Part shown: positions 32,535-55,200 of the stretch, piece by piece
Numbering within the stretch: the first letter of the stretch is position 1
Layout of the letters: each line of letters starts with the position of its first letter
Origin: Eubacterium sp.
GTDB taxonomy: Bacteria; Bacillota; Clostridia; Oscillospirales; Acutalibacteraceae
DNA length: 64,000 nt
NCBI GenBank assembly: GCA_022511225.1
Contig: JAFLRZ010000006.1
Coordinates: forward strand, 38,620-102,619
Direction of reading: 5' to 3'
Position numbers and translations under genes: made by a program
The notes under the pieces: model-generated
Told to the model about the DNA's origin: nothing
What the model saw: the letters and a program-made list of their open reading frames with translations, nothing else
Databases searched by the model: none

Positions 32535-32870
32535 ATGGCAAGAGCAAAAAAGATTACAAAGAAGCTTGTATGCGAAGGCTTAAGGCGCTTAGCCTTTGGA
32601 GATATACAGGACGCAGTAACGCTTCTTTTTGAATCCGACGAAGCAATACTTGACTCCCTTGGCAGACTTGATTTATTTAACGTCAGCGAAATCAAGAAGG
32701 CAAAGGGAGGAGGTATGGAAATTAAATTTTTTGACAGAATGAAGGCACTTGACAGACTGATGGAGGTAGCAGATACGGAAAACAGTGCTTCGCCAGCCTC
32801 TTTTTATGAAGCACTTGAAAAAAGCTCTGCAAGGCTTAAGAATGCTTATGGAGATGAGGATTATGAGTAA
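32535..32870 (+). CDS. Terminase small subunit-like protein
   Basis: Small basic protein directly upstream of and overlapping the large terminase; position-based call. Confidence 0.6.
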   Translation: MARAKKITKKLVCEGLRRLAFGDIQDAVTLLFESDEAILDSLGRLDLFNVSEIKKAKGGGMEIKFFDRMKALDRLMEVADTENSASPASFYEALEKSSARLKNAYGDEDYE

Positions 32871-34122
32871 ATTCGTGCCCTTTTCTCCAAAACAGCTTCG
32901 CCTTATGAATTGGTGGTGTGCAGACAGCGGTGTAAGCGACAAAAACGGAATTATCTGTGACGGAGCCGTTCGTAGCGGCAAAACACTTTGTATGAGCGTT
33001 TCATTTATCTGCTGGGCGTTTTACAGATTCAGTGATACCTCCTTTGCCATCTGTGGCAAGACCATCACTTCCCTGAGACGAAACGTAATAACACCGCTTC
33101 TGCCTGTTCTTCAGGATTTAGGCTTCAGTTGTGACTATAAAATCAGCAGAAATTACTTAGAGCTTACAAAGGACAAGCACACGAACCGATTTTATATTTT
33201 CGGCGGCCGTGATGAAAGCTCTGCAAGTCTGATTCAGGGTATGACACTCGGCGGTGTAATGCTTGATGAGGTGGCACTTATGCCGCGCTCGTTTGTTGAG
33301 CAGGCACTTGCAAGGTGCTCTCTTGAAGGCTCCAAATTCTTTTTCAACTGCAACCCCGAGCATCCGTATCACTGGTTTTACGTGGAATGGATAAAAAAGC
33401 ATAAGGAAAAGAATATGCTCTACCTTCATTTTACAATGGAGGATAATCCCTCTTTATCAGAAAAAATCAAATTAAGGTATAAAAGTCTTTACTCAGGAGT
33501 GTTCTACGAACGCTTTATCGAGGGTAAGTGGGTTGTGGCAGACGGACTTGTTTATCCGATGTTCGACCACAATCGGCATATCCGAAAATGTAATGATAAT
33601 ATCAGCGAATATTATCTTTCCTGCGATTACGGAACGGTCAACCCCTTTTCCTTAGGCTTATGGGGAAAAGGCAGTAACGGCTGGTACAGGCTTGATGAAT
33701 ATTATCATTCCTCCCGCGATGCAGGAATTCAGCTTACGGATGAGGAATATTACTCTGCACTTAAGAGGCTTGCACAGGGCAAAAAAATAAGTGCAGTAAT
33801 TATTGACCCATCCGCAGCATCCTTTATACAGGTTGTGAAGCGTCATAACGAATATCGTGTTATCAAGGCTGACAATGACGTTCTCGGCGGTATTAACCGC
33901 GTGTGTCAGGCTCTTAAAAATGATGAGATATTCTTTTCTCCGAATTGCAGTGATTCGATAAGAGAATTTTCAGTTTACCGCTGGGACAACAGTATAAGAA
34001 AGGATGTTCCGATAAAAGAAAACGATCACGCAATGGACGACATAAGGTACTTCGTATCAACTGTGCTTGGTAAAAATGATACTTATACCTCCTTTGCCTC
34101 CGTTGCGATAGAAAGGAAATGA
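32863..34122 (+). CDS. Phage terminase large subunit (start placed at 32863)
   Basis: Walker A-like GAVRSGKT, GVMLDEVALM Walker B, nuclease-like LSCDYGTVNPFSLGLW, VIIDPSAASF, HAMDDIRYFV. Confidence 0.92.
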   Translation: MSKFVPFSPKQLRLMNWWCADSGVSDKNGIICDGAVRSGKTLCMSVSFICWAFYRFSDTSFAICGKTITSLRRNVITPLLPVLQDLGFSCDYKISRNYLELTKDKHTNRFYIFGGRDESSASLIQGMTLGGVMLDEVALMPRSFVEQALARCSLEGSKFFFNCNPEHPYHWFYVEWIKKHKEKNMLYLHFTMEDNPSLSEKIKLRYKSLYSGVFYERFIEGKWVVADGLVYPMFDHNRHIRKCNDNISEYYLSCDYGTVNPFSLGLWGKGSNGWYRLDEYYHSSRDAGIQLTDEEYYSALKRLAQGKKISAVIIDPSAASFIQVVKRHNEYRVIKADNDVLGGINRVCQALKNDEIFFSPNCSDSIREFSVYRWDNSIRKDVPIKENDHAMDDIRYFVSTVLGKNDTYTSFASVAIERK

Positions 34123-34126
34123 GGCA

Positions 34127-35251
34127 TTGGGCTTATTGAGCTTAAAAAAGAAGAAACCGTCATCGGCATCTGCCTTGGCAGTTCAGACCTCCTCAGGAGC
34201 GAAGCACCCATACTATCAGCTTGCCTCCTATATGCCTCTCAGTACGCAAACAAGGGTTTATCAGGTAGTCAGGGAGGCAGTTCCCATCATTGATGCCGCA
34301 ATCAACAAAATCGTCAGGCTTTGCGAGGGCTTTCACCTTGAAACAGGAAGCGAAGCACTTGATGAGGAAATTAATGAATTTTTTGCCGACATCAATGTAG
34401 GCGGAAATCAGCAGGGATTAGGTGCCTTTGTATCTAACTATCTTAATCAGCTTCTTACATACGGAACGGCTGTCGGTGAAATCGTTACTGATGATTACGG
34501 CATCTACGCACTTTACAACAGTGAGCTTGAACAGCTTGAAATCAAGAGAGCGAGTAACAACATTGACGTTGAGTTTTACAACTGCGGAGTAAAGGTTTCT
34601 AATCCTAATCTCATTCTTTACTCCGTGCTTAATCCCAAGGCGGGAGCTCTTTGCGGCACAAGTCTGCTTCAGGGACTTCCGTTTATCACTGATATTCTTA
34701 TGAAAATCTACAACACAATCGGAGAAAACTGGAAGCACGCAGGCAATATCCGTTATTCCGTAGTCTGCAAAAATACCGAGGGTGTTGACGGTGCTGATGC
34801 ACAACAGCGTGCCGATGCAATTGCTTCTGCGTGGAGCGAGGCTATGAATAGTGATTCCGTTAAGGATTTTGTTGCCGTTGGCGATGTGAGCGTATCTGTA
34901 ATCGGTGCAGACAATCTTGCGCTTAACAGTGAAATCCCTGTCAGACAGTTACTTGAGCAGATAGTAGCCAAAACAGGCTTGCCTCCGTTTATGCTCGGAC
35001 TTAACTGGTCTACGACGGAAAGGATGAGCACTCAGCAGTCGGATATACTTACTACTGAGCTTGACTCTTACCGCAGGGTAGTGACACCGATTATCAAAAA
35101 AATCGGCAGAATGTACCTTGCATCAAAGGGTAAGTGTGCACCTGTTGAGGTCGTCTGGGATGACGTTACGCTTCAGGATAGGTGCGACAGTGCAAAGGCG
35201 GAGCTTTATCTGGCACAGGCAGAAAAAATCAGATGGGAGGATGTGAATTAA
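34127..35251 (+). CDS. Phage portal protein (TTG start)
   Basis: Portal-like order after terminase; REAVPIIDAAINKIVRLCEGF, GENWKHAGNIRYSV, GLPPFMLGLNWSTTERMSTQQ. Confidence 0.85.
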   Translation: MGLLSLKKKKPSSASALAVQTSSGAKHPYYQLASYMPLSTQTRVYQVVREAVPIIDAAINKIVRLCEGFHLETGSEALDEEINEFFADINVGGNQQGLGAFVSNYLNQLLTYGTAVGEIVTDDYGIYALYNSELEQLEIKRASNNIDVEFYNCGVKVSNPNLILYSVLNPKAGALCGTSLLQGLPFITDILMKIYNTIGENWKHAGNIRYSVVCKNTEGVDGADAQQRADAIASAWSEAMNSDSVKDFVAVGDVSVSVIGADNLALNSEIPVRQLLEQIVAKTGLPPFMLGLNWSTTERMSTQQSDILTTELDSYRRVVTPIIKKIGRMYLASKGKCAPVEVVWDDVTLQDRCDSAKAELYLAQAEKIRWEDVN

Positions 35252-36207
35252 TGACAGGCTATATTGAAAAAAGCTTTGAAATAGACAAAGGCGATTTAGA
35301 AAAAATCAATAACTATACAAGAAGCGATTTTGATGAAACTATGCTTTATGCTTTTAACGTAGTGCTCTGCAATAACGATATTGACAGAGATAACGAAAAG
35401 TTTTCTGTTGATACACTTTATCAGCTTTGCGAGCTGTTTAAAGGGAAAACAGGTATCAGCGACCATTCGATGAAGTCCTCCTGCCAGAAGGCTCGTATTT
35501 TTGATACGTGGGTTGAAAAGCTTGAAGGACGAAAAACTGCCGACGGCGAGCCGTTTTATCAGCTCAGAGCTAAGGCGTATATGGTAAGAAATGAGGAGAA
35601 TCTTCCTCTTATTACCGAAATAGAAGCAGGAATTAAGAAAGAGGTTTCAGTGTCCTGTTCTGTTTCAAAAAGCATATGCTCAATCTGCGGTAACGATAAA
35701 AAGCTTAAATCGTGTTCCCATATTAACGGAAGAGAGTATGACGGCAAAAAGGCATTTACCGTTCTCAGCGGTGCAACGGATGCTTATGAATTCAGCTTTG
35801 TTGCAGTACCTGCACAGCGCGAGGCAGGAGTTACGAAGTCGTTTGACACGAAAATGGAGGTACAAATGGAGGATATTATTAAAACACTTAAGGACTGCAG
35901 CGGCGAGCTTGTAATATCAAAAAGTCAGGCGAAAGAAATCAGCTCTTACATAGAGAAGCTTGATGAGGAAGCAAAGCTCGGAAAGCAGTATAAGCAGGGA
36001 CTTGTTGAGGAAGTCATTTCACTTTGCGCTACGGCAATTCCTGAAATGGATATGGACGTTTTCAGCGGCGTAGCACAGGTGATGACAACAAACGAACTGC
36101 ATTCATTCAAAAAAGCTTTTACAAAGGCGAGAGCTGCAAGAAACGTATCACTTCAGCTTAAGCCTGCAGGTGAAATTCCTGCATCTAATAATCAGTTTAG
36201 GATTTAA
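35251..36207 (+). CDS. Prohead protease-like protein with internal Cys/His cluster and C-terminal scaffold-like helix region (start placed at 35251)
   Basis: Position between portal and capsid; CSICGNDKKLKSCSHINGREYDGKKAF and TDAYEFSFVAVPAQREAGV. Confidence 0.7.
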   Translation: MTGYIEKSFEIDKGDLEKINNYTRSDFDETMLYAFNVVLCNNDIDRDNEKFSVDTLYQLCELFKGKTGISDHSMKSSCQKARIFDTWVEKLEGRKTADGEPFYQLRAKAYMVRNEENLPLITEIEAGIKKEVSVSCSVSKSICSICGNDKKLKSCSHINGREYDGKKAFTVLSGATDAYEFSFVAVPAQREAGVTKSFDTKMEVQMEDIIKTLKDCSGELVISKSQAKEISSYIEKLDEEAKLGKQYKQGLVEEVISLCATAIPEMDMDVFSGVAQVMTTNELHSFKKAFTKARAARNVSLQLKPAGEIPASNNQFRI

Positions 36208-36225
36208 CAACAAGGAGGATTAATT

Positions 36226-37215
36226 ATGTCTTTTGACAATATAAAACTTGAAAAAGGTCTTTACACAACAGGTAAGTCCTTTACAGAAGCACTTGAAGCT
36301 ATCGACCCTTCAGAAAACTATAAGGGTACATCTCTTGAAGGACTCGATGCATATGAACGTCAGCTTAAGAGATTTGACATCAAGGTTTCAGGAGCAAATT
36401 CCGATACAATCTCAAAGTTCTATAAAACAACGGATTCTTCTGTTCTTTTCCCTGAATATATTTCAAGAGCTGTAAGAACAGGAATGGAGAGAAACGACAA
36501 GGTTGAAAAGCTTGTTGCAACCACAACAGAAATCGACTCTCTTGATTACAGAAGTATCAGCTTTGATGACGAAATGAATTTAGAGCTCAGCGAGGTTGCA
36601 GAAGGATCAGATTTTTCTGAGTGTGCCGTTTCTCTTAATGAAGAGCATACAACGCTTAAGAAGTACGGCAAGATTCTTAAAGGCTCATACGAGGCTATTA
36701 AGTTTCAGAAGCTTGATTTGTTTTCTATCATTCTTAAGAGAATCGGTGAAAATATTTCAAACGCTCAGTTCGCAGCTGCAATTAATACTATTGCGGAGAG
36801 CGAAAAATGTCAGCCGTATACTTGCGACATTGAAAATATTAAATATGAGGATCTTGTCAATATATGGACTATGTGCCATCCGTTTAATATGAATACTCTC
36901 GTAGTAAGTAAAAACGTTTTAGCCAATATTCTTAAGATGCCTGAAATGAGAGATGCAAGCGCAGGACTTAATTTCCACGGTACCGGAAAGCTTGTTACAC
37001 CGTTTGGTGCTGAGCTTATCTGTGCGTCTTTTACAGACAATGACTACATATTCGGCATCGACAGAAATAACACTCTCGAAAGAGTTCAGGCAGGCGGAGT
37101 ACGTACAGAATTTGACAAGTTAATTAACTGCCAGATGGAAAGAGCTGCAATTTCAACTATAGTCGGCTTTTCACCAATCTACGGCGAAGCAGCTGTATTC
37201 TCAATGAAATCATAA
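36226..37215 (+). CDS. Phage major capsid protein (HK97-fold-like)
   Basis: Follows protease; 329 aa; LFPEYISRAVRTGM N-terminal and TPFGAELICASFTDNDYIFGIDRNNTLERVQAGGV C-terminal capsid-like segments. Confidence 0.8.
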   Translation: MSFDNIKLEKGLYTTGKSFTEALEAIDPSENYKGTSLEGLDAYERQLKRFDIKVSGANSDTISKFYKTTDSSVLFPEYISRAVRTGMERNDKVEKLVATTTEIDSLDYRSISFDDEMNLELSEVAEGSDFSECAVSLNEEHTTLKKYGKILKGSYEAIKFQKLDLFSIILKRIGENISNAQFAAAINTIAESEKCQPYTCDIENIKYEDLVNIWTMCHPFNMNTLVVSKNVLANILKMPEMRDASAGLNFHGTGKLVTPFGAELICASFTDNDYIFGIDRNNTLERVQAGGVRTEFDKLINCQMERAAISTIVGFSPIYGEAAVFSMKS

Positions 37216-37237
37216 TTAAGCTTGGGAGGACTATTCT

Positions 37238-37597
37238 GTGACAGATTATAATTCCGTTATAAATCAACTCGTCATTATTTCTCAAATGACAGAGGATGAA
37301 ATCGAAAAATATGAGAATTGTATCAATAGCTCAATAGAGTATGTCTTTTCAACACTTGTCAGTGAGGAATGCTGTAATGACAGCCGTGTAATTAATCTTT
37401 GCGCTGTAAATGCTTTTATGAAAATTGCCTTGATTAAGGAAGCGGACAGTGACGGTATTTCTTCATTTTCAGCAGGGGATGTGTCTTTTTCGAGGGACAC
37501 ATCCTCTCTTGACAGAATTAAGCTTCTCTATGAGCTTGCACGTGACGAGTGTAAGGATATGGTTGTTGATAACGGCTTCTCATTTAAGGTGGTGTAG
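37238..37597 (+). CDS. Head-tail connector-like protein (GTG start)
   Basis: Small ORF directly after the capsid gene; position-based call. Confidence 0.5.
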   Translation: MTDYNSVINQLVIISQMTEDEIEKYENCINSSIEYVFSTLVSEECCNDSRVINLCAVNAFMKIALIKEADSDGISSFSAGDVSFSRDTSSLDRIKLLYELARDECKDMVVDNGFSFKVV

Positions 37598-37598
37598 T

Positions 37599-37955
37599 AT
37601 GAACAAGGCAGACGTAATAAAGGCTCAGCTGAGTAAAATCGGAAGCACTGTTTACCTTAAAGACGGAGAATGGGTATCTATGCCGTTTAAGGCAAGCTTG
37701 TCAAGGCTTTGGAGAAAGAAAAGCTCGGGCTTTGAGCATACTTTTGCAGAGCTTGGTGACGTCGGTTCCGATTATTATTTGTACATAGGTCCGTATAATC
37801 ACGATATTTGCACGTTGACGAATGACGGTGTGCTCTTATATGACGGCGATGAGTACGAATTTAAGTGCAAGGATCCCGTAACGTTTGACGATACAGTGCT
37901 TTATTATTCGGGAGTTTTACGAAAAATCAGAAAGGGTGATTATTGTGAGACTTGA
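37599..37955 (+). CDS. Head-tail joining/connector-like protein (start placed at 37599)
   Basis: MNKADVIKAQLSKIGSTVYLKDGEW...; position-based call. Confidence 0.5.
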   Translation: MNKADVIKAQLSKIGSTVYLKDGEWVSMPFKASLSRLWRKKSSGFEHTFAELGDVGSDYYLYIGPYNHDICTLTNDGVLLYDGDEYEFKCKDPVTFDDTVLYYSGVLRKIRKGDYCET

Positions 37956-38355
37956 TAATGCAGTCAGCGAAATTGAAGCCTTGCTCAAAAATAGCAGTGA
38001 GCTGTCTGACGCAAAAATCATCACTGCCTTTCCTGATGCAATTAAGCCTACAAGACTTGATAAGGCTTTAGTAGCAATCGGCATAAGCGAGCTTGATATT
38101 GCACCGTCTGAGCTTGAAAGCAGTAACAGAGCAGGAAATCTCAGCATATTTGCCGATATTTTTGTTCCTTCATCACTCGGAAGCACTGCACCATTAAATA
38201 CACTTGTAAGTGTATGCAAAGCACTTGATGCTTACTGCATAGTTTCAATCAAGGCAGATAAGCCGTATTATAGCAGGGAAGTGCAGGCGGTAGTGCTCAA
38301 AACAGTAATTACTTTCAGCGACAGAATTACCTTCGGGGGTGATGATAATGAATGA
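37945..38355 (+). CDS. Tail-completion/terminator-like protein (GTG start at 37945)
   Basis: Overlaps the upstream gene by 11 bp; position-based call. Confidence 0.45.
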   Translation: MRLDNAVSEIEALLKNSSELSDAKIITAFPDAIKPTRLDKALVAIGISELDIAPSELESSNRAGNLSIFADIFVPSSLGSTAPLNTLVSVCKALDAYCIVSIKADKPYYSREVQAVVLKTVITFSDRITFGGDDNE

Positions 38356-38437
38356 AAATATTGACGAGGCAGAAATTATAAGCGAAATCATCAGACTTGA
38401 CGGAAAACGCTACGACAGCAGTATGGAGAGTGATTAA
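38348..38437 (+). CDS. 29-aa coupled mini-ORF between connector and LysM genes
   Basis: MNENIDEAEIISEIIRLDGKRYDSSMESD; overlaps the upstream stop, and its own TAA abuts the next ATG. It lies at the point where sheath/tube/tape-measure genes would be expected. Confidence 0.45.
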   Translation: MNENIDEAEIISEIIRLDGKRYDSSMESD

Positions 38438-38938
38438 ATGAAATATAAGGACTATGAATTTCCGCAGACTCCGTCAAAAATAGAAATATTATCAAATACC
38501 AACGTGAGCAAATCTCCTGTTTTTGACGGAAACAGCGTAGTTGAAAACGTATCTGTAAACCCTGTTACCGTAAAATGCACGGGTGAGTTTTTCGGCAAAG
38601 AAGGCAGGGAGTGTTGTGATATGATTCAGAATCTACTGAAGCAGTCGGATGCAGGGTGGCTTTTCGCACCTGAGCTTTCACCTGTAAAAGCATTTCTTAC
38701 GTCGTTTTCCTACAGCAAGGGCGTTGATAAAAATTCAATCAGCTACGTTCTGGAATTTACCGAATGTTGTGACAGCTCCAAGGGTACAGCAGTTATTAAT
38801 TATACTGTATGCCGAGCAGGTGAAAATGCTTTTGACATCGCAAACAGGTGCTCAATCGATGTAGAAACCGTTATGAGGCTCAATGATTTTATAAGTCCTT
38901 TCGATATTAACGAGGGTGATAAGGTGATGATAAAATGA
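38438..38938 (+). CDS. LysM-containing tail assembly protein (XkdP/gpU-X-like)
   Basis: C-terminal LysM: YTVCRAGENAFDIANRCSIDVETVMRLNDF. Confidence 0.75.
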   Translation: MKYKDYEFPQTPSKIEILSNTNVSKSPVFDGNSVVENVSVNPVTVKCTGEFFGKEGRECCDMIQNLLKQSDAGWLFAPELSPVKAFLTSFSYSKGVDKNSISYVLEFTECCDSSKGTAVINYTVCRAGENAFDIANRCSIDVETVMRLNDFISPFDINEGDKVMIK

Positions 38939-39882
38939 AATTAGTTGTTCAGACAGTAGACGACGTTAAGCTTGAAATCGAAAACATTACACGGCTGACC
39001 TTCAGTCAGTCCGCCGATGCAGCCTGCGACAGCGTATGGGCGTATTTTAAGAGTGAAGCTGCGATTAGCGAAATAGCCTCCGTTATGCTTTTTGACGGCG
39101 AAAAGCTTGTATTTAACGGATATTGCGATTGCCAGAAAACGGTTGAGGACAAGGACGGTTTTGAGGTGTACGTGTTTGCACGCTCAAGCGCGTCACTTCT
39201 CGTAGACAATCAGGCAGAGCCGTATACTTATATTTCACCGAGTGCAAAACAGCTTTGCTTGCTTTATGCAAATCCTTTTGATATTAAATGCGCACTGCCT
39301 GAAATTTACAGCACTCAAAGCTATCAGGTTCTGGGTGGTACGTCTTGCTACGGTGCGATAAATCAATTTGTGTATTTTTGTACAGGCTACAGTATTATGG
39401 TAACTCCTCAAAATGAGCTTTGTCTGCTCACTCCGAGCGATAGTGTAAAATCTCTTGACAAATACATTGTGCTTTCAGTTAAATCGACTATTAACAGAAG
39501 TGAGCCTATAACTATCATTAATTATAAGGATTCTCTTAACGCAAACGGCTACTCTCACCATACACGCTCGGAATATGCCGAGTCACAAAAAATCAACAGA
39601 AGCCGTTATGTCAATCTTAATTCTCTCGCTCCGTGGCAAAGAGATTTTACCGTTCTTCAGAAGATTAAAAAATCGTTTGATGAATATAAGCTTCTTGAGC
39701 TCGAAATTGCAGGCTTTGCAGACGAGGATTTGCTTCAGCGTTTTTCATTCAGCTCTCGTTCAGGCAACTTTGATGACTACGCACTGACCGAAAAGCGTTA
39801 CATCTGTGATAAAAGCGGAAAGCGGACAAGACTCATCTTAAGAAAAATGATTGACGTAAAGGAGAATACGTATGTGGATTAG
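38935..39882 (+). CDS. Phage late-control gene D / XkdQ-like baseplate hub protein
   Basis: Directly after the LysM gene; about 315 aa with gpD-like organisation (AKQLCLLYANPFDIKC; INYKDSLNANGYSHHTRSEYAESQKINRSRYV). Confidence 0.7.
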   Translation: MKLVVQTVDDVKLEIENITRLTFSQSADAACDSVWAYFKSEAAISEIASVMLFDGEKLVFNGYCDCQKTVEDKDGFEVYVFARSSASLLVDNQAEPYTYISPSAKQLCLLYANPFDIKCALPEIYSTQSYQVLGGTSCYGAINQFVYFCTGYSIMVTPQNELCLLTPSDSVKSLDKYIVLSVKSTINRSEPITIINYKDSLNANGYSHHTRSEYAESQKINRSRYVNLNSLAPWQRDFTVLQKIKKSFDEYKLLELEIAGFADEDLLQRFSFSSRSGNFDDYALTEKRYICDKSGKRTRLILRKMIDVKENTYVD

Positions 39883-40234
39883 TCAGCAAATCAGTAAAAG
39901 CGATTCTGAGCCTTCTATACAGAGGGGACGTGTAACGTTAAACAGTAGTGGTGAACTTGAGGCTGTATCAACAGGAGTTGAAAGAAGTGTTGACGTGTTT
40001 TCTCCGTTTGGATACGCCTATTGTGTTCCTGCGGATACGGATATGCTTCTTGCACGATTCGACGGAAGGCAGGGCGCAATCGGTATTACTATGGAGAATG
40101 AAGCTCTTGACGTGGGCGAAATAAAAATCACTTCTACGTCAGGAGCATACATTCATCTTAAAAATGACGGCAGCGTTGTGATAAACGGCTTAGTGATAAG
40201 TAAGACAGGTGAAATAATTGAAAAGAAAAATTAA
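39872..40234 (+). CDS. Baseplate assembly protein V / spike-like
   Basis: RSVDVFSPFGYAYCVPADTDMLLARFDGRQGAIGI and GEIKITSTSGAYIHLKNDGSVVINGL match the gpV/Mu gp45 repeat style. Confidence 0.75.
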   Translation: MWISQQISKSDSEPSIQRGRVTLNSSGELEAVSTGVERSVDVFSPFGYAYCVPADTDMLLARFDGRQGAIGITMENEALDVGEIKITSTSGAYIHLKNDGSVVINGLVISKTGEIIEKKN

Positions 40235-40502
40235 TGAAAACGAACAGCTTTTTGAAATACTTCAAAGCTGTGTGCTGGTACTTAACTGCCCCCGACTGAA
40301 GCATTATCCGAACAAGAATTTCGGAAGTAACTTAAAAGCACAGGGAAATGATATTACCGTTAAGTTGGCTCTTGATTATGCAAGACAGGCAGTCAAGGAG
40401 CTTGACGGAGTATTTATAAAGTCAGCGGGGTATTGTGATGACGGCATTATTTTTGATGTGCTTGTTAATAACGAGGAAGGAGAGGTGACAGTTAAGCTTT
40501 GA
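40218..40502 (+). CDS. Baseplate wedge gpW/gp25-like protein (TTG start)
   Basis: KNFGSNLKAQGNDITVKLALDYARQAVKEL; sits between V and J. Confidence 0.6.
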   Translation: MKRKINENEQLFEILQSCVLVLNCPRLKHYPNKNFGSNLKAQGNDITVKLALDYARQAVKELDGVFIKSAGYCDDGIIFDVLVNNEEGEVTVKL

Positions 40503-41572
40503 GTAAAACAACAAAAGAAATATATGATTCAATGAAAAAATATTATGAGGACAATGCAGGCGAGATCCTCAATGATAATTCAAAGCCGGCAAGAATTTTT
40601 GAGGCACTTTCTACCGAGCTTTATGCACTTTACTGCTATGGCGATTATACACGCGCTCAGGCTTTCGTACAGAGTGCTACGGGCGAAAATCTTGAAAAGC
40701 TTGCCGAGCTTCGCGGTATTACAAGAAAAACACCGCAAAAGGCTACGGGTGAGGTCGTATTTCGTATAGCTCAGCCCGCAGAGAAGATGATTTACATTCC
40801 AAACGGAATAATCTGCTCTGTAAGCAGTAAGCCATACCTGCAATTTGTTACTACGTACAGTTCATTTATTGAAATCGGTCGTACCTCGGCAGTGATACCG
40901 GCAGAGGCAATTTCTGAGGGCAGTATGTACAACGTGTATCCAAAAGAAATTGACCTTATGGTTAATGCTCCTCCCGGCATTTCAAGTGTATATAATGCAG
41001 AAGCCTTTACAGGAGGATATGATATGGAAAATGATGAGTCGCTTCGTATGAGAGTGATAAATCGCTATGCATTTGACCCCAGCGGAGTCAGCGCAGGACT
41101 GCTTGAAAGCATTGTGATGAATCTTGAATTTGTTACGGACTGCTATATTCCAAGAGTTGAGAAATTCGGAACTCTTACAGTGTACATAGCAACGAAAAAT
41201 AACATTTTGCTTGATTCTTATGAAGAAGAAATAAAAGAGGCTCTTGCCATCTGCGAGCTTTTCGGCGTACAGCTTGAGATTGTTCTTGCATCTTATCAGG
41301 ATTTTTCCATTGACTTAAGACTTAAGGTCAGAGCGAATTTTGACAAAGCTGTTATAGAGAAAGAGCTTAGAAACGTAATAAATATGCTTTATGCTCAGTG
41401 CAGAATCGGAGATGCCTTTTCTCTTGAGAATATTGAAAAGCGTGCACTTCTTATTGACGGCGTGCTTGATGCTTCGGCAGAATCTGAAAGCGCGATTAGC
41501 AACACGGTTTATTCTGATTACGGCAAAAAGCTTAATATCAAGGATTTGGCGGTGAGCTACTATGAAGCTTAA
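40499..41572 (+). CDS. Baseplate J-like protein (TTG start)
   Basis: AEAISEGSMYNVYPKEIDLMVNAPPGISSVYNAEAFTGGYDMENDESLRMRVINRYA is typical of baseplate J (gp47). Confidence 0.9.
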   Translation: MSKTTKEIYDSMKKYYEDNAGEILNDNSKPARIFEALSTELYALYCYGDYTRAQAFVQSATGENLEKLAELRGITRKTPQKATGEVVFRIAQPAEKMIYIPNGIICSVSSKPYLQFVTTYSSFIEIGRTSAVIPAEAISEGSMYNVYPKEIDLMVNAPPGISSVYNAEAFTGGYDMENDESLRMRVINRYAFDPSGVSAGLLESIVMNLEFVTDCYIPRVEKFGTLTVYIATKNNILLDSYEEEIKEALAICELFGVQLEIVLASYQDFSIDLRLKVRANFDKAVIEKELRNVINMLYAQCRIGDAFSLENIEKRALLIDGVLDASAESESAISNTVYSDYGKKLNIKDLAVSYYEA

Positions 41573-42137
41573 TGAGGAACGAAGCAAAAGACTTAAATTC
41601 CTTGCAGATAATTTATCGTTTGATTACGAGAATGATAAAAATAATTCAGTCCTTCTCAATACGGTTGATAACGCAATTAAAGAGGTGTTTGAGTATCTTA
41701 AAAAAGTGCTTGAAGATGCTTATGCAACAGACCCAAAGGGCAAGGGAGCAGCTCTTTTTCTTGAAATTTTGCAAAGAGATATTGATTCGCTTGATGATGA
41801 AGAGTCGAAGAATCTGATTGTAAGCTCCCTTTCAAAGCCTTTCAGCTATTATGAATCGGGCACGTTTCTCAACTTATTGAATGAGCTTGCAGTACGTTCC
41901 ACTGTTTCATACCGTCTTAAAGCAGTAAAAATAGAAAGTGACGTAATATCGGATATTGATACTCTTAATGAATACTGCAGGATTATTTCAAATTTTGTAC
42001 CGCCGTTTTTTCCTTGTACGGCTTCGGGCAATGGAGTGAAGTTTTCCGTATGGGACGGATTAACGGCAAGCTGGTATCAGCTCGATAAAATGAACATGCC
42101 GTTTTATTTTATGGACACACTATATGTAGAGGAGTAA
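41562..42137 (+). CDS. Phage tail protein I / XkdU-like (DUF2313-like)
   Basis: Directly follows J with overlap; ~190 aa. Confidence 0.6.
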   Translation: MKLNEERSKRLKFLADNLSFDYENDKNNSVLLNTVDNAIKEVFEYLKKVLEDAYATDPKGKGAALFLEILQRDIDSLDDEESKNLIVSSLSKPFSYYESGTFLNLLNELAVRSTVSYRLKAVKIESDVISDIDTLNEYCRIISNFVPPFFPCTASGNGVKFSVWDGLTASWYQLDKMNMPFYFMDTLYVEE

Positions 42138-42140
42138 ATT

Positions 42141-42647
42141 ATGAGCAGTTATAACAAAACAAAGAACTTAAAACTTAATCAGTGGAGGGAATCAGACGTT
42201 CCTAAAATGGCTGATTTTAATTACGATAATGAAATAATCGACAGTGAGCTCAGCTCTCACACAGCCAACAGTGAAATTCATATCAAATCAGAGGAAAGGG
42301 ACAGATGGAATGAATACGTTTTTACAGGGGTCTATTTTGGTGACGGTAAGCTTTCCCGCATAGTGGAAACAAATTGTCCTTTTGAAGCGGTTTTCGGCTT
42401 CGTTTATACTGATGAAATGCCCCCTTCAATTCACTATAACGATGACGGCTCAACGCACCATTACGTGTCATTTGTGAGTCAGTTCGGAAACTCAATCGGT
42501 GCTTCAATAAACAAGAATAACAAAGACATAACTGTAAAAAACAGCTTTGGTGCAGAGATTAAAAATGAGCATGCAAATTTGAATCAGAACGGTTTGATGT
42601 ACCGTTACGTACTGTTCAGGGATAACAGAGGTATCATAAATAAGTAA
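42141..42647 (+). CDS. Short tail-fibre-like protein
   Basis: N-terminus SSYNKTKNLKLNQWRESDVPKMADFNYDNEIIDSEL, then ERDRWNEY, resembles Firmicutes phage tail-fibre N-termini. Confidence 0.65.
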   Translation: MSSYNKTKNLKLNQWRESDVPKMADFNYDNEIIDSELSSHTANSEIHIKSEERDRWNEYVFTGVYFGDGKLSRIVETNCPFEAVFGFVYTDEMPPSIHYNDDGSTHHYVSFVSQFGNSIGASINKNNKDITVKNSFGAEIKNEHANLNQNGLMYRYVLFRDNRGIINK

Positions 42648-46522: not shown

Positions 46523-47044
46523 TTGTCTGACAATGCAACAAAGCAGGAGGCTACACGGCTGTTTAATATTGCTTATGAAGAGTCGTATACTTCGATTTAC
46601 AAGTTCTGTTTGTCTAAGCTTAAGAACACTCACTTAGCTGAAGATTGCGTTCAGGAAACATTTTTGGTTTTCTACAACAAGCTTCTTACAGGCGAGGAAA
46701 TTTCATACTCAAAGGCATTCCTGCTAAAAACGGCAAATAACTTTATTCTAAAGAAATTCAGTGAAGTAAAAAAGTCGTATAACACAATAAGCATTGACGA
46801 GGTTATCAACATTCCTACCCAAAATGAAGATATCGACGACAGGCTTACCTTTGAACAGTATTCAAAGCAGATAAGTGCTGCACTTTCGGACAAGGATGCA
46901 GAGTTGTTTTCAATGAGGTACATAGAGGAATTAAAAATTGATATGATTGCCGAGAGATGCGGTATGAGCATTACGGCAGTCACTACAAGATTATCCCGAA
47001 TCAGAAAAAAATTACAAAAACTATTTGAAAATGATTTAAGATAG
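46523..47044 (+). CDS. ECF-type RNA polymerase sigma factor (TTG start)
   Basis: Sigma-2-like HLAEDCVQETFLVFYNK; sigma-4 HTH DMIAERCGMSITAVTTRLSRIRKKLQKL; strong SD ggaaggaggtg. Confidence 0.9.
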   Translation: MSDNATKQEATRLFNIAYEESYTSIYKFCLSKLKNTHLAEDCVQETFLVFYNKLLTGEEISYSKAFLLKTANNFILKKFSEVKKSYNTISIDEVINIPTQNEDIDDRLTFEQYSKQISAALSDKDAELFSMRYIEELKIDMIAERCGMSITAVTTRLSRIRKKLQKLFENDLR

Positions 47045-47072
47045 AAAAAATCAAATAGAGAAAGGAGTAGTT

Positions 47073-49211
47073 ATGGCGCACGTTAATATTAACAAAAAAG
47101 CTCTTGATAACATTAATAGCGAAAATCTTTCGTCAGTGCTTAATGATATGATTGATAAAGAGCTGTCAAAGAGTGCTGAAAATATAGACACAGTATTTGT
47201 TGATGAGTGCGTTAATGCTTTACTTGAGCTTGAACGCGAAAATAATAGCGCAGCAGCAATAGTTCCTTTAATTAGCAGTGATAAATTTCTTAAAAAGATT
47301 ACAAATCAAAAATCAGCAAAAGGCTTTAAGAGCCTTAACACTTTTGCAAGAGTTGCAGTTGTAGCGGCAATTATTGCAGGCGGTACGATGACTGCCAATG
47401 CAGCAGTAGAAGCAGTTACCGGAGTTAACGTAATACAGATGGTAGCAGACTCAGTTGAGAGCAAGCTCATAGACTGGGGAATTATGAAAACCTCTATAGA
47501 AAACGTAGATGCAGGATTTGACGACGATGATGCTACTACAGAGCCTGTAACAGAGCCAACCACTGAACCGACTACTAAGCCGACTACCGAGCCAACAACA
47601 AAGCCTTCTACTACTCAGCCGAGCGGTATAGAAAATGTGGACGGTGGTATGGACGACGATGAAGAAACTACTACTCAGTTCAGCGGTATAGAGAACGTGG
47701 ACGGTGGTATGGATGATGATGAAGAAACCACCACTCAGTTCGGCGGTATAGAGAACGTGGACGGCGGTATGGACGATGATGATGAACCTACTACCGAGCC
47801 GAATAAGCCTTCTAAGCCTTCAACAACTCAGCAGACTACTGCTAAGCCTGCTATTGAGCAGACAACGAAGCCTGAAGAATCTGCCGTATTTACTCAGCTG
47901 AGAGTAGAATATGATGACAGCTTCAAGTTTGATTACATTTACGGCGAGAAGCTGAGCTATGATGGAATGAAGCTCATAGCAAGCTACAGTGACGGCAGCG
48001 AAAAGGAAATTGACCTTGCCGACTGTAAGTACACAACGGCGATAGACACTACCGTTACTGCCGATTATGAGCTCACTATTCTTTATAAGAGCAGTAGTAT
48101 TAAAATCAACGTTACAGTCAGACCTGATGAATTTACAAGAGGCTCAGAGATTTGCAGTAACAGTCTGTTTGAGTATCTCCTTACGGAGCAGGGTGCTTAC
48201 GTAACGGCATATAAGGGTTACTCGAATTACTTAGAGCTTGATGAAATTGACGGCAACAAGGTAGTTGCAATCGGTCCGTCGTGCTTCAGGGGTAAGGGTA
48301 TACAGAGTATTACCGCACAGAACGTTACAAGAGTTTACGGCAACGCCTTTGAAAACTGCCAAAGACTTACTGAATGTTATATCCCGTCTGCTGAATATAT
48401 CGGCGATTATGCTTTCAGCGGATGCGAGTTTATAGACAGAGCAGTTTATTCCGACAAGCTTGAATATATCGGCAAGGGATCGTATAATAAAACTGCAATT
48501 ACGGAAATTGTAATTCCAAGCGGTGTTACAGAAATCCCCGACTATGCATTCAATCAGTGCGAAAGCCTTGTGAGTGTAACGATGCTCGGCAAGGTTACTT
48601 CTATCGGAAGCTTTGCATTTAATGAATGTGTTAAGCTTGAAACCGTGACAGGCTGTGCCGATATAACTTCAATCGGAGCATTCGCATTTGCAGATGACGA
48701 GCTTGTAAACTTTGACACCTTCCCGCAGAAACTTGAAAGGGTCGGCGAAAGCGCACTTTACTTCTGCCAGAACTTGGAGATTGGCGCTCTTCCGTCTGCG
48801 ATTAAGGAGCTTGCACCTAATGCATTTGCCTACTGCTTAGGTCTTACCGAGATTGAGATACCTGAGGGTATCACCGTTATCCCTGAAAACTGCTTCAGGG
48901 CAACAAATGCAGAAAAGATTATTCTGCCTGAGGGCGTAACGGAAATCGGCAAGTATGCATTTATGAGCCACAAGGCAACGTCAATCGTGCTTCCGAAATC
49001 TCTTAAGATAATTAAAACGTACGGACTTTACTCTGTGATGCTTCGCACGGTATATTTTGATAGAAATGTTGAAGAAATAGGCTCTAACGCATTTTACGCA
49101 GGACGGTCAGTAGTCTTTTACGTATATGAGGATACCGTTCCTATGGACTATGCAATAGAATATGATATAAAATATATACTGCGTGATGAATCTGCAGAGA
49201 TAGGAGAGTAA
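47073..49211 (+). CDS. Predicted anti-sigma-like single-pass protein with extracellular Ig-like and BspA-type LRR_5 domain
   Basis: Immediately downstream of the sigma gene; ~95-aa cytosolic N-terminus, TM (ARVAVVAAIIAGG), T/P/E linker, acidic repeats, Ig-like domain, LRR_5 repeats (IPDYAFNQCESLVSVTM...). Confidence 0.75.
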   Translation: MAHVNINKKALDNINSENLSSVLNDMIDKELSKSAENIDTVFVDECVNALLELERENNSAAAIVPLISSDKFLKKITNQKSAKGFKSLNTFARVAVVAAIIAGGTMTANAAVEAVTGVNVIQMVADSVESKLIDWGIMKTSIENVDAGFDDDDATTEPVTEPTTEPTTKPTTEPTTKPSTTQPSGIENVDGGMDDDEETTTQFSGIENVDGGMDDDEETTTQFGGIENVDGGMDDDDEPTTEPNKPSKPSTTQQTTAKPAIEQTTKPEESAVFTQLRVEYDDSFKFDYIYGEKLSYDGMKLIASYSDGSEKEIDLADCKYTTAIDTTVTADYELTILYKSSSIKINVTVRPDEFTRGSEICSNSLFEYLLTEQGAYVTAYKGYSNYLELDEIDGNKVVAIGPSCFRGKGIQSITAQNVTRVYGNAFENCQRLTECYIPSAEYIGDYAFSGCEFIDRAVYSDKLEYIGKGSYNKTAITEIVIPSGVTEIPDYAFNQCESLVSVTMLGKVTSIGSFAFNECVKLETVTGCADITSIGAFAFADDELVNFDTFPQKLERVGESALYFCQNLEIGALPSAIKELAPNAFAYCLGLTEIEIPEGITVIPENCFRATNAEKIILPEGVTEIGKYAFMSHKATSIVLPKSLKIIKTYGLYSVMLRTVYFDRNVEEIGSNAFYAGRSVVFYVYEDTVPMDYAIEYDIKYILRDESAEIGE
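47622..47801 (+). repeat. 60-bp in-frame tandem repeat (3 clear copies)
   Basis: Units start at 47622, 47682 and 47742, encoding (S/G)GIENVDGGMDDDEETTTQF; a divergent founder-like copy (SIENVDAGFDDDDATTEP) lies near 47494. Confidence 0.9.
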
Positions 49212-49213
49212 TT

Positions 49214-52200
49214 ATGAAAAACATTAAAAAAACCATAGCATTTCTTCTTGCAGTAGTTATGCTTCTGTCTGCAATTCAGATAACAGCCTTTGCAGATGAA
49301 ATCAGATATGACGACAGCGGCTCAAATGATAAAGTCAGCTGGAGCTATACGGCAAGTACGGATACGCTTTATATAAATGGTGACGAAATTCAGTTAATGG
49401 ATTACGGCGCACTGCCTACGTATAAAGACGGTGAGCTTGTTAAAAATCTGCGCTTCTCTCATCTTGTATTCGGCAAGGACGTAAGAGAAATAATCGACCC
49501 CGGTTATGCAGGCTACAAGCAATGCTACGATATCAATAGATATGCATATAAGGACAGCAGATTTGACATTACCTTTGAAAAGGGCAGCGTGCTCGAGACA
49601 ATCGGTGATATTGCTTTCAGCTGCTCCACTGTAACATCAGTTACACTTCCTGATGACCCCGGTCTTTCAATTACAATCTGTACTGAAGCATTTGCAGAAT
49701 CACCCTACCTCAAAAGCTTTACTATGTATGACAACGTTTACGAGTTAGGTGAAATGGCATTTATATATGACATTGCGCTCGAAGAAATCCGCTTGTCCTC
49801 TAAATTAAGCGAGCTTGATGAGTATATGTTCGCAAATTGTGAGTCACTTAAAGAAATTGATATTCCGGATGGCGTCGTTTCAATCGGAGTATACTGTTTT
49901 CAGGAATGTTATTCTCTTGAAAGTATAAATCTTCCGAGCTCACTTGCAGTTATCAGTGAATCTGCATTTGAGAGCTGTACCTCGCTTAAGAGTATGGTTA
50001 TTCCGCAGGGAGTTAAAAAACTTCCTAACAATGTATTAAGTAACTGCACAAGCCTTGAAAGCCTTGATCTCGGCAATATCACGAGTATGGGCTCATACAC
50101 GCTCAAAGGATGTACGGCACTTAAGTCAGTTACTATTTCTGATAGCTTAACATCTATTCCTAAGTTTGCATTTGACGGTCTTTCATCACTTGAAACTGTT
50201 GATTTAGCTAACGTAGTAACAATTAATGGTTATGCATTCCAGTACTGCACATCGCTTAAAAATATTGATTTACGAAATGTAGTAACAATCAATAATTATG
50301 CATTTCAAAGCTGTACAGCACTTGAATCGGTAGTTATCCCCGATACTGTTACAGGGCTCGGCGTATGTGCATTTTATAACTGTAAAAATCTTTCTGACGT
50401 TACACTCTCAAAGAATATTTCAATTATACAGTCAAACTGCTTTTCAAATTGTAAGCTGAGAGATATTGAACTCCCTGAGGGAGTTACCAAAATCGGTTCA
50501 TACGCATTCTCTAATGGCTTAAGCGGAAATATAACCTTCCCTTCAACACTCGAATCTATAAATGAATATGCATTTTTAAACTGCGACCTTAAATCAATCG
50601 ATTTCGGTGAAGAGGGTAAATCCCTCAGCATTGATAAAAACGCTTTTATGAATAACGAAAATCTCACAAGTGTAACGTTCACTCCGAGAGTTATTTCTAT
50701 AGGAAATGAAGCATTCAGCGGATGCTCAAGAATTAAAACCGTTAATTTTGAAACGAGAGAAAACGGCTCAGTTGTCGAAGGTGTGAATATAATTGGTTCC
50801 GCTGCCTTTAATGCAACAGATATCGAAACACTTGTATTGCCTGAAACTCTCAATGACATCTACGACAGTGCATTTGCATATATGGCAGAGCTTAAGTCAA
50901 TCGATATGTCAAAAACTAAGATTACAAAGCTCCCCGTATCACCGTTTTATTTCGATGATAAGCTTACGGAAATTAAGCTCCCCGAAGCATTGACGGAAAT
51001 CGGAAATTATGCATTCGCAACTGTACCTATCAAAACTCTTAATATTCCGGCGTCTGTTAAAACTCTCAAGGACTACGCATTTTCTTTGTCAAATCTTGAG
51101 GAAATCACTATTCCGAATACTGTAGAAAATATCGGCGAAGGTCTTTTTGAAGACACTAAAAATCTTAAGAGTGTAAACATCGAAGAAGATATTACCGAGA
51201 TTTATCCGTATATGTTTAACGGATGCATAAATCTTGAAACGGTTAATATCCCTGAAAGCGTTACTGAAATCGGCGAGGGTGCATTTGCAGGCTGCTCAAG
51301 TCTTAAGCTTGAAAGCGTTCCCGACCGTATTACGTTAATTGATGACTATGCGTTTTACGGCGCTTCCGTAGATTTTGAACTTCCGTTTTTCCTCGATTAT
51401 GTCGGTGAATCTGCATTTGAGGACTCTACAATTAAAAAAGCACGTTTGGCTAAGAAAGGAATCGAAATCTGTGCCAATGCATTTAAGAATGCAAGCGAGC
51501 TTAACGAGGTAGTGCTTTCTGAAACTCTTTCTCAAATTCCTGATTACTGTTTTTACGGTACTGCTATTACGGAAATTACAATTCCTGACAGAGTAACAAG
51601 AATCTGTGACTATTCATTTTCAAAAACACCGCTTAAGAGCGTTAATTTCTCGAAAAATCTTGTGCACATTAATTTAAATTCGTTTGAAGGTTGTACTGAG
51701 CTTAAAGAGGTTGACCTTTCAGGTACAAAGCTTACATATATCAATGCTTACGACTTCAAAAACTGTACGTCACTTGAAAAGGTTGTTCTGCCGAATGACT
51801 TAACGCAGATAAGCGTTGACGGTTTTTACGGATGTACAGCTCTTTCTGACATTGTATTTCCTGATAAATTAAAATATATTGATGGAGATGCGTTTTATAA
51901 CTGTTCAAGTCTTAAAAGCATAAGGCTTCCTGAAAGTCTTAGCACCATTGGTAAAGATGCATTTTACGGCTGTCCGCTTACTGCTGTTGATATCTATAGT
52001 AAAAATATCACTTTAGATCATCTTAACAATTCAAAAATCGGATTTACGGCTGCAGGTAAGCAGACTAATCTTGTAATAACCGGATATGCTGACTCAAGTG
52101 CTCAGAAGTACGCTAAAAATAACGGCTTTAAGTTCTACGCAATCGGCTATTATGACGAGTTTAATACCGAGGTACCTAACAAAGGTACAGTCGGCGCCTT

Positions 52201-55200
52201 TGCAAATTGGTACGTTAACGGCACTGAGCTTCATATCTCAGCAAAATCCTATGGAAATGGCGTTATAAAGTCAGCAGATTTTAATGCCTATTTAGAAGAT
52301 AAAGATACGACTGTAACTTACACCCTTTCTCACATAATTGAGGCTAAGGGCATTACAAGGCTTGTTGTAGAGGACGGTATCACTTCACTTCCCGATAATC
52401 TTTTCACAAATTCTAAATATGAGAAAGACTTTGATAATTCATCACTTACCGAGGTTTCACTTCCTGATACACTTAAAACTATCGGAAGCTACACCTTTGC
52501 AAACAGCAATATCAAGTCAATCGTTGTTCCTGATTCAGTGTCCTCCATTGGTGCTTATGCCTTTTACCAAGCTGATTTGTCAGAGGGCGTTCAGCTTGGT
52601 AACGGCATAACGGAAATTCCGGCATACGCCTTTGCAGGCACTTCACTCAAAAGATTTGAAGTTCCTTCAAGCATAACAAAAATTGACGAGGGTGCATTCC
52701 TCGACTGTCTTGATATGACATATATTACAGTGCCTTCATCAGTTACTACAATCAATGAAGCTACAAGAACAACAAGACCTATCGGCTTTACAAGCAAGGG
52801 CGTTCTCCTTTCAGGCTTGTTTATGGATGTAAGACCTGATTCCGAGGGACTTAGGTATGCACAGCTTTACAGCATAGATCACGACAGAACCCTTGACGGC
52901 AATACGCTTTACGGCAGATTCGGTGACGTATCGGGCAACACGTGGCACTATGACGTTAAAAGCAAAACTATGTATCTCAACGCTCCTGTTTTCACGAGCA
53001 ACAACACCCTTTACTACATTGACGGCACGGCACTTAAGTCAGACGAGTTTGACGTTGAGCTGCTTATTGTTGACTGCGAAACCTCAATTGACGGCTACAA
53101 GTCAGCAAGCCCGTTTGCAAAAATAAATCCTAAAAGGATTTCTCTTCCAAACTCTGTGAGATACATTTCCGACTATGCCTTTGCAGGGCTTACAAATCTC
53201 ACATCAATTACCATCCCTGACAGTGCTATAAGCATTTCAGCCACAGCCTTCAAAAACTGCAAGAATCTTAAGGGTATTAACTTTGGTAACGGTATCAAGA
53301 GGATTACAACAGGTATCTGCCAGAATATGAATTCACTCCAGGCAGTTGAATTCGGAAGCTCTACTCAGTCTATTGAGTATGCTGCATTCTACAACTGTGT
53401 GAATCTGCAGAGCGTGCACATTCCAAAGTCTGTAGAAGATATCAGGGAGCATGCTTTTGAAAACTGCTATGGACTTATCAGCATTGTTAACGACAGTAAG
53501 GCAACCGTTCGTGATAGAGCATTTAGTAATCTTCCTCTCCTTGAAGAGATCGTTCTTAATAACAATTTCGTATCTTTTAAGGAAGACTTTTACGGTGTAT
53601 TTGATAACTTCACTTCTAAGAGCAGAAATAATCTCGTTATCAAATTTATGAGCGATGATGCAGTTGCAGACGTTGCAAGCTACGTGTTTACTAAGGCATC
53701 AAAATATTACTTCGGTCCTAAAGTAACTGACGTAAACTTCAGATATGATTATGATCCTGTAAAGTTTAGTTCAATTACGGTTGACAGCGAAAATCCTGTT
53801 CTTTATGCCGACAACAATTGCCTTTACAAAAAGACTAAAGACAGCAATGGTAACGAAATTGATACTCTTCTCATTGCACAAAATACAACAGGCACAATCT
53901 CGATAAAGGTTGGAACAGACGCAATCGGTGAAAATGCATTCTTTGCAAACGAAGCAAGCAGTGTTCTGCTTCCAAGCAGTGTAACTTCAATCGGCAATAA
54001 TGCATTTGAGAGGTGCAGCGAGCTCAAAACAGTAAGTATGCCTGAGTCACTTAATACTATCGGCGAGGCTGCATTTAAGGATTGTGTAAGGCTTAAGACT
54101 ATGAACATTGCATCTGCTCGTACAATCGAGAGTAATGCATTTGACGGATGTACAAATCTTTCAAGTGTAATTCTTCCTGAAAATCTTGAAAGCATCGGCG
54201 ACTACGCATTCAGAAACTGTATCTCTGTTATCGGTATGGTCATTCCCGAAGGTGCAAAATCTATCAGCTCAAACGCATTCAACGGCTGTATAGCTTGTGA
54301 TGAAATCTACATTTGGGATACTGCTATTAATGATAATGACGACAGATTTACAAACTGCGACAATCTTATGATTCATACTATGGCAGGCTCAAATGCTTAT
54401 GCATACGCAAGAGAGTATGATATTCCTTACTGTGCTTATACAGACAGCGACATATTCTATGATTTATGTGCAATGAAGCTTGATGTTTATGCAGGATACT
54501 TAGGCTTCTGCGATGGCGGTCACGGTGATATTCAGTATCTTACAGTATACGAGGCAGGCTGTGATCTTGACGGATTTATTATAGGTGTTTGTGAATACTG
54601 TTCTGAAATTCTTGAAGAAATCCACACAGAAGCAACAGGACACAATTACTATATAGCAGCAGATATTCCTGCTACTGAAACTACTCAGGGCACTATAAAG
54701 TACACCTGCACAAACTGCAACGACACTTATTACACTTACACTCCTGCACTTAATCCTGATTCTCAGCCGACAACAGTTACAGTCAGCGGTACAATAACGA
54801 TTGCGATAAACGGTGATGCAACTTCAGGCAACGTGCCTGTATACAGTGCAAGCATTATTTTAGACGGCTACAAGGTTGCTACTACTGATGAAGACGGTAA
54901 ATTCAGCTTATCACTTCAGACAGGTGTTCACGAAATAGCAATCCGCTACAGCTACGGTATTGAAAGAACAGTTTATATCGTTGCTGAGGATAAGGACTTT
55001 GACTGTGGAGCTATCCCAATCATTGCTTGTGACTGGGACAAGAACAACGTTATTGATGAAGAGGACGTAGAGCTGTTTAAGCTGGTTATTTCCTCAAAGC
55101 CGTCTGATCCGTCTTTCTTAAGATTTGTTGACCTCAACGGCGATAACTACATCAATGCTAAGGATATGGCTATAATCAGAAATTGTATGAAGTATGATCC

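Follow-up and report, generated by a model that had tools for sequence, protein, structure and literature searches.

In a gut Eubacterium sp. of the Acutalibacteraceae (order Oscillospirales), the stretch of DNA analysed here (64,000 nucleotides of GenBank assembly GCA_022511225.1, contig JAFLRZ010000006.1, positions 38,620 to 102,619; hereafter the window) carries a phage-derived operon of 16 head, neck and baseplate genes at 32535-42647, all on the + strand in a window of 41% GC, that lacks the tail shaft. This set belongs to an extensive family of particles derived from phages, little described so far, in which the tail has become smaller step by step. We regard it as practically certain that such a cluster exists, that it is conserved and that it has no shaft. 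The explanation that we consider probable, including the mechanism proposed below, is a particle of the gene transfer agent (GTA) type, inherited vertically and maintained by the host, that has lost its shaft and whose baseplate hub docks directly on the tail terminator. A little less firmly, we lean towards an architecture of which we found no description, namely a DNA-filled capsid with a terminator directly bearing a full contractile-type baseplate and a tape measure of 29 residues, which would be one stage in a repeated stepwise tail loss within a family of gene-transfer particles spread across the order, running from short contractile tails to tube only, baseplate only, a terminator-fibre fusion, and head plus neck only.

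The evidence begins with the window's genus, where the portal gene was found in 71 of 80 genomes, in a single copy each (split into two adjacent pieces in one genome). Thirty-nine sister loci were retrieved, and 38 clusters (the window and 37 sisters) have their baseplate end inside the contig. All 38 contain the LysM, hub, spike, gp25-like, J and fibre genes, their gene order is identical, and sheath and tube profiles match nothing in any of them, a recurrence well beyond what chance would give. The head and packaging genes (TerL, portal, protease, capsid and TerS) have a median pairwise ratio of nonsynonymous to synonymous substitution (dN/dS) of 0.10-0.21, with TerL at 0.10, and the neck and tail genes one of 0.34-0.54; the ratio is a rough measure here, since synonymous distances are near or above 1 and thus near saturation.

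Conservation and chromosomal site of the cluster

The first-pass annotation had argued against random decay, and the genus bears this out, since the shaftless state is shared by all 38 clusters, reading frames are intact with few exceptions, and the median dN/dS is below 0.55 for every gene. A decaying prophage from which the shaft was recently deleted is therefore very improbable as an explanation of the window. It could appeal to rare damaged copies, in which TerL is split (L180) or J is shortened and I undetected (L174 and L175), but the genus in which the shaftless state is fixed has synonymous distances near or above 1. Moreover, tube loss is spread over several lineages, with at least seven state changes on the tree described below. 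At the level of the genus, the fixed shaftless state together with purifying selection refutes decay.

The flanks of the window cluster are host housekeeping genes. One end is bordered by HisC and RmuC, genes for an ECF transporter, CoaX, DUF1015 and M23 lie beyond the other end, and a Zn-ribbon gene is also among the flanking genes. Downstream coaX and/or DUF1015 recur in six relatives (L055, L058, L062, L063, L064 and L066) with portal identities of 58-72%, and M23/Zn-ribbon genes lie upstream of the cluster in several relatives. Among the flanking genes tested, none encodes an integrase, repressor, replication protein, holin or endolysin, in agreement with what was first noticed. These patterns indicate a fixed chromosomal site, occupied by a single copy and vertically inherited in the genus, with flanks in common where they were checked.

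Such a setting bears on capsid-forming phage satellites of the phage-inducible chromosomal island (PICI) type, which encode their own capsid and packaging genes and no tail shaft. The head and packaging genes of the window, free of replication and shaft genes, do resemble part of such a satellite. However, these satellites are mobile and depend on the tail of a helper, whereas the window cluster sits at a fixed site with no integrase or regulator nearby, has its own baseplate, which capsid-forming satellites take from the helper, and encodes a TerS without the region for specific recognition. We consider a satellite origin of the set highly unlikely.

Neck, baseplate and the mini-ORF

The cluster is a coupled series of open reading frames (ORFs), all open, whose neighbours overlap or abut. 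The coordinates, open frames, overlaps and identities first read from the series, from terminase to fibre-like protein, hold, as follows (lengths in amino acids, aa):

32535..32870, +, TerS, small terminase, 111 aa (Pfam Terminase_2, C-terminal part only)
32857..34122, +, TerL, large terminase (phrog_2, E 7e-50; Pfam Terminase_6N, E 2e-13); start taken as the ATG inside the TerS overlap
34127..35251, +, portal, 374 aa (phrog_30703 portal, E 1e-123)
35248..36207, +, probable prohead protease/scaffold, a role suggested by its place between portal and major capsid protein (phrog_16951, unknown function, E 4e-87)
36226..37215, +, major capsid protein (MCP), HK97 type (phrog_3922 major head protein, E 2e-73; Pfam Phage_capsid_4, E 3e-8)
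37238..37597, +, c1 (connector 1), head-tail adaptor (phrog_541, weak, E 0.04; orthologue in tailed relatives)
37599..37955, +, c2 (connector 2), probable head-closure protein/stopper (orthologue in tailed relatives; function from order)
37942..38355, +, c3 (connector 3), tail terminator (predicted fold, Foldseek)
38348..38437, +, mini-ORF, 29 aa, apparent remnant of the C-terminus of x2, the putative tape measure of tailed relatives (genus profile and position)
38438..38938, +, XkdP-like protein with C-terminal LysM (Pfam LysM, E 4e-4; profile against LysM structures, E 3e-8)
38935..39882, +, baseplate hub of the gpD/gp27/Mu gp44 type (predicted fold, Foldseek; phrog_177 in relatives)
39872..40234, +, spike, Mu gp45/gpV-like (Pfam Phage_Mu_Gp45, E 0.01; phrog_25991, E 2e-7; order)
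40218..40502, +, gp25-like baseplate wedge subunit (order; the L007 gene at the same place matches baseplate wedge PHROGs)
40499..41572, +, baseplate J wedge protein (Pfam Baseplate_J, E 3e-28; phrog_6 baseplate wedge, E 3e-49)
41562..42137, +, tail protein I-like (profile matches I of tailed relatives, E 1e-19 to 1e-21)
42141..42647, +, short fibre-like protein (weak tail PHROG, E 0.003; its domain is fused to c3 in L072)

The gp25-like protein has no family match of its own, and the I-like protein has none directly, the I proteins of tailed relatives matching phrog_521 tail protein. TerL is the sole Terminase_6N protein in its genome.

The order LysM, hub, spike, gp25, J, I is that of PBSX and other Mu/P2-like contractile phages, and the hub shares their fold. 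Its AlphaFold model (pLDDT 93.8) matches MuSo2/Mu gp44 in Foldseek (E 1e-18, TM 0.78), which upholds the proposed gpD-like hub, and of 22 family members, 20 have a match to the baseplate hub family phrog_177; the spike is weakly similar to Mu gp45. Between neck and LysM gene, in contrast, those phages carry sheath, tube, chaperones and a long tape measure, where the window has 29 codons. A complete prophage of the PBSX/Mu/P2 type was rejected, as neither sheath nor tube is found in the window or in the 37 complete sister loci, and so was a tailocin or contractile injection system, since capsid, portal and terminase are present and sheath and tube absent. PADLOC gave no match that would make the cluster a defence system.

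Shaft homologues among the small connectors would have refuted the first-pass reading. The c3 model (AlphaFold pLDDT 88.9) matches lambda gpU, the diffocin collar and the pyocin R2 collar in Foldseek (E 1e-4 to 5e-6), which identifies c3, from its predicted fold, as a tail terminator retained without a tail. The c1 and c2 profiles, which match nothing among solved structures, find orthologues in the corresponding position of tailed relatives (E 1e-18 to 1e-28 for c1 and 1e-14 to 1e-22 for c2), and the profile of c3 detects its counterpart in the tailed locus L101. Since these counterparts stand beside a real sheath and tube, and c3 has a terminator fold, a sheath or tube concealed among c1-c3 is ruled out.

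The interval between c3 and the LysM gene does hold only the mini-ORF, as first described, and it is more than filler. It was detected in nearly all loci of the window's genus, with a dN/dS of 0.40. Searching the 4157 ORFs of 24 loci from outside the genus with a profile built from the genus gave 12 matches, all to the ORF immediately upstream of the LysM gene in tailed or tube-bearing relatives, compared with none among reversed sequences. The matches are individually weak (E 3e-5 to 0.8), so the weight of the homology is carried by position. In tailed relatives the gene x2 occupies the expected place of the tape measure, a function that remains putative as it is drawn from gene order, and encodes about 135-230 aa ending in DxRRYDxGF. 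The mini-ORF thus appears to be a remnant of the C-terminal tip of this short putative tape measure. As a tape measure spans about 0.15 nm per residue, the length of x2 would permit only a very short tail. With 136-194 aa, the putative tape measures of L101 and L119 would give a contractile tail that is exceptionally short.

Two other features were noted in passing. A virion structural gene of phrog_4588 (110-117 aa) lies between protease and MCP genes in several relatives (e.g., L201:11940-12293); it is missing from the window and its nearest sisters, and in other genus members some 370-400 bases separate the two genes. Elsewhere in the window, at 46523-55237 and unrelated to the cluster, a sigma-factor-like gene is followed by genes for leucine-rich-repeat proteins of 712 aa and 2007 aa, the latter with a dockerin-like C-terminus.

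Graded tail forms across the order and the search for a shaft

Mapping portal relatives among viral contigs and genomes, we found that the full form of the family has the order c1-c2-c3-sheath-tube-x1-x2-LysM-hub-spike-gp25-J-I. Members with a short contractile tail (L007, L101, L119, L134-L137, L151 and L153) share with the window a homologous TerS-TerL-portal-protease-MCP-c1-c2-c3 series and a homologous LysM-hub-spike-J-I series in the same order, but have a sheath of 340-380 aa and a tube of about 128 aa, mostly also a putative tape measure of 135-230 aa, where the window has its 29-aa remnant. The sheath of these relatives matches sheath PHROGs (E 3e-48), and the tube matches a solved tail tube (E 0.002).

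Other members stop short of this form in different ways. A tube without a sheath is found in L091, L110, L117, L138 and L147, and also in L139 and L140, where the tube is fused to c3 and c2, respectively; L117 is from a cultured species, Clostridium (Faecalispora) sporosphaeroides DSM 1294. The tube-c3 fusion of L139 (8225-9010), seen again in L118, L121 and L128, and the tube-c2 fusion of L140 are intermediate between a separate tube and none. The window's genus has a baseplate without a shaft, L105 and L118 combine an extended c3 with an N-terminal portion of the LysM protein, L148-L150 and L152 have only the hub beyond the neck, and L142 and L200 end at the neck. In L072 and many loci like it, c3 is fused to a fibre domain and nothing further follows; the fusion occupies a single ORF (L072:11887-12723, with about 30 similar loci among L070-L106) that is followed by host genes, and such loci possibly encode a minimal particle of head plus fibre without any baseplate. 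On a tree of TerL, portal and MCP, the sheath state changes at least three times and the tube state at least seven times. These counts come from a rapidly built tree with no inferred root, and genes scored as absent may in some cases have diverged.

In an order-wide survey, the portal was present in 55 of 299 sampled genomes, 33 of 151 genera and at least five families. Portal and capsid relatives in phage collections are all uncultured contigs, except for one remote portal (25% identity) in Microcystis phage MACPNOA1. The longest such contig, MT835508.1 (L200), deposited as "Bacteriophage sp.", contains ribosomal protein genes, rpoA, secY and adk and is host chromosome carrying only head and neck genes of the window's family; it is thus no evidence for a free phage. 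A link of the family's viral contigs to a study that sequenced virus-like particles was sought in that paper, in which the accession does not appear.

The first-pass annotation had offered a split system, with the tail shaft encoded elsewhere, as one reading, and such a shaft could also be borrowed from a resident phage in the manner of a satellite. The family's own sheath profile found nothing in 80 genus genomes, and its tube profile found nothing in the window's genome and four other genus genomes. Both are positive in tailed relatives, the sheath profile in L101 and L119 and the tube profile in L101, L119, L117 and L110 and weakly in L069. A broad sheath family, phrog_23, was found in 5 of the 80 genus genomes, the window's own included; the sheath searches covered phrog_23 and the family profile, so sheath families beyond these would escape them. 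When the window's genome was first searched for a sheath with Pfam, nothing was found despite the sheath there, and this negative is uninformative by itself.

The sheath in the window's genome belongs to a separate, unrelated P2-like prophage on another contig (L207, C10:1001-20900) with its own GpA-type terminase, capsid, sheath, baseplate, 730-aa tape measure and endolysin. Thus, the genome does contain shaft genes, in this prophage. A second phage-like region of this genome (L208, contig C4:32001-51900) is siphovirus-like with a 1174-aa tape measure.

The P2-like prophage, together with a GTA of Faecalibacterium reported to use two loci (PMC12946183), speaks for a split or borrowed tail. 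However, a sheath in 5 of 80 genomes is far rarer than a cluster in 71 of 80, which makes a shaft encoded in trans unlikely, and a borrowed tail would duplicate the cluster's own terminator, hub and wedges. We therefore assign this reading little probability, somewhat above that of decay or a satellite.

Proposed packaging and delivery, and relation to gene transfer agents

With the split system disfavoured, the other part of the first interpretation, a domesticated particle that is GTA-like or has its injection baseplate docked straight on the capsid, fits the fixed site, the single copy, purifying selection, the lack of mobility genes nearby, the form of TerS and the existence of tailed homologues. 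In the window's genus, TerS matches only positions 58-131 of the 141 positions of Terminase_2, with positions 1-57 missing, whereas TerS of tailed and tube-only relatives matches from position 1-6. TerS of the Rhodobacter capsulatus agent RcGTA lacks the corresponding N-terminal DNA-binding domain, which has been offered as an explanation of its random packaging (PMC6854486). This mark of GTAs, as judged from the domain match, is present in the window's genus and not in every family member. GTAs of the RcGTA type (Rhodobacter capsulatus, Caulobacter) are also alike in having a head-tail cluster of about 10-15 kb without integrase or replication genes that is vertically inherited under purifying selection (PMC6854486). 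They differ in phage ancestry, the window having an XkdP/J-type contractile baseplate, and RcGTA has a tail tube; for the window's family, gene transfer is putative.

For the GTA-type particle that we favour, we propose the following mechanism. TerS and TerL would fill a small HK97-type capsid by headfuls with non-specific host DNA, and the neck would be closed by portal, c1, c2 and the c3 terminator. The trimeric hub, whose pseudo-sixfold face usually sits on the first tube ring, would dock directly on the c3 ring, and the mini-ORF peptide, the former tape-measure tip, would anchor in or plug the hub channel. LysM and fibre proteins would then attach to the cell wall of kin, and upon departure of the spike the DNA would cross a podovirus-like stub with no contraction. 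The particle would in this way both package and deliver DNA.

Several points weigh against this proposal. Delivery is its most doubtful step, since the sequence would look no different for a particle that packs DNA without injecting it, and particle, packaged DNA and transfer are read here from genes. To our knowledge, there is no phage whose hub is docked directly on the terminator. Lysis genes were not found in the cluster, nor was a holin in the window's genome, where one holin family was searched for. The dN/dS values carry the roughness of near-saturated synonymous sites, the identities of c1, c2, gp25 and I are set mainly by order, and the tail of the P2-like prophage could in principle be borrowed.

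A domesticated particle with another job, such as killing kin, packing DNA that is not injected as PBSX does, or carrying protein, is the most serious competitor, at a clearly lower probability than the GTA-type particle. PBSX of Bacillus subtilis sets a precedent by packing host DNA yet acting as a bacteriocin (discussed in PMC12946183). Moreover, the baseplate genes evolve fastest in the window's genus (median identity 24-41% versus 54-74% for head genes), as target recognition would predict. However, tailocin-type killing needs a sheath and a tube, both absent here, and the terminase genes are conserved, TerL most strongly of all, so that DNA packaging seems to matter.

A 2026 study reported that GTA-like packaging of host DNA is common in gut Oscillospiraceae and Ruminococcaceae (PMC12946183). 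Its FpGTA of Faecalibacterium forms capsids of 40 nm that look tailless and contain 8.4-8.9 kb of random host DNA. An operon was identified only in Faecalibacterium, the genomes of Onthomonas and Gemmiger that were searched yielding none, and 4.6-kb packaging was seen in Ruminococcus callidus (PMC12946183); our literature search on the 4.6-kb packaging returned nothing beyond this source. FpGTA resembles the window's set as a domesticated capsid operon of the same bacterial order with the gene order terminase-portal-scaffold/protease-capsid. Its putative loci in Faecalibacterium, located through the terminase, differ in having a portal of about 580-630 aa, compared with 374 aa in the window. 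The window's portal profile had no match in three genomes that we take to be Faecalibacterium-like from a 16S probe sequence, and candidate FpGTA-like loci (L156-L159) show only remote TerL similarity to the window's family (E about 1e-6 to 1e-9). Membership of FpGTA was thus rejected, no gene except this TerL being in common, and the window's family is a domesticated family of its own, the second in this bacterial order.

Given its spread over genomes, genera and families of the order, the window's family is a direct candidate for the packaging events in Oscillospiraceae and Ruminococcaceae that were left unassigned (PMC12946183), and the question becomes testable. The family also provides a natural series in which a phage tail is dismantled stepwise while selection preserves the remainder, and this series bears on the question of what the minimum delivery device is.

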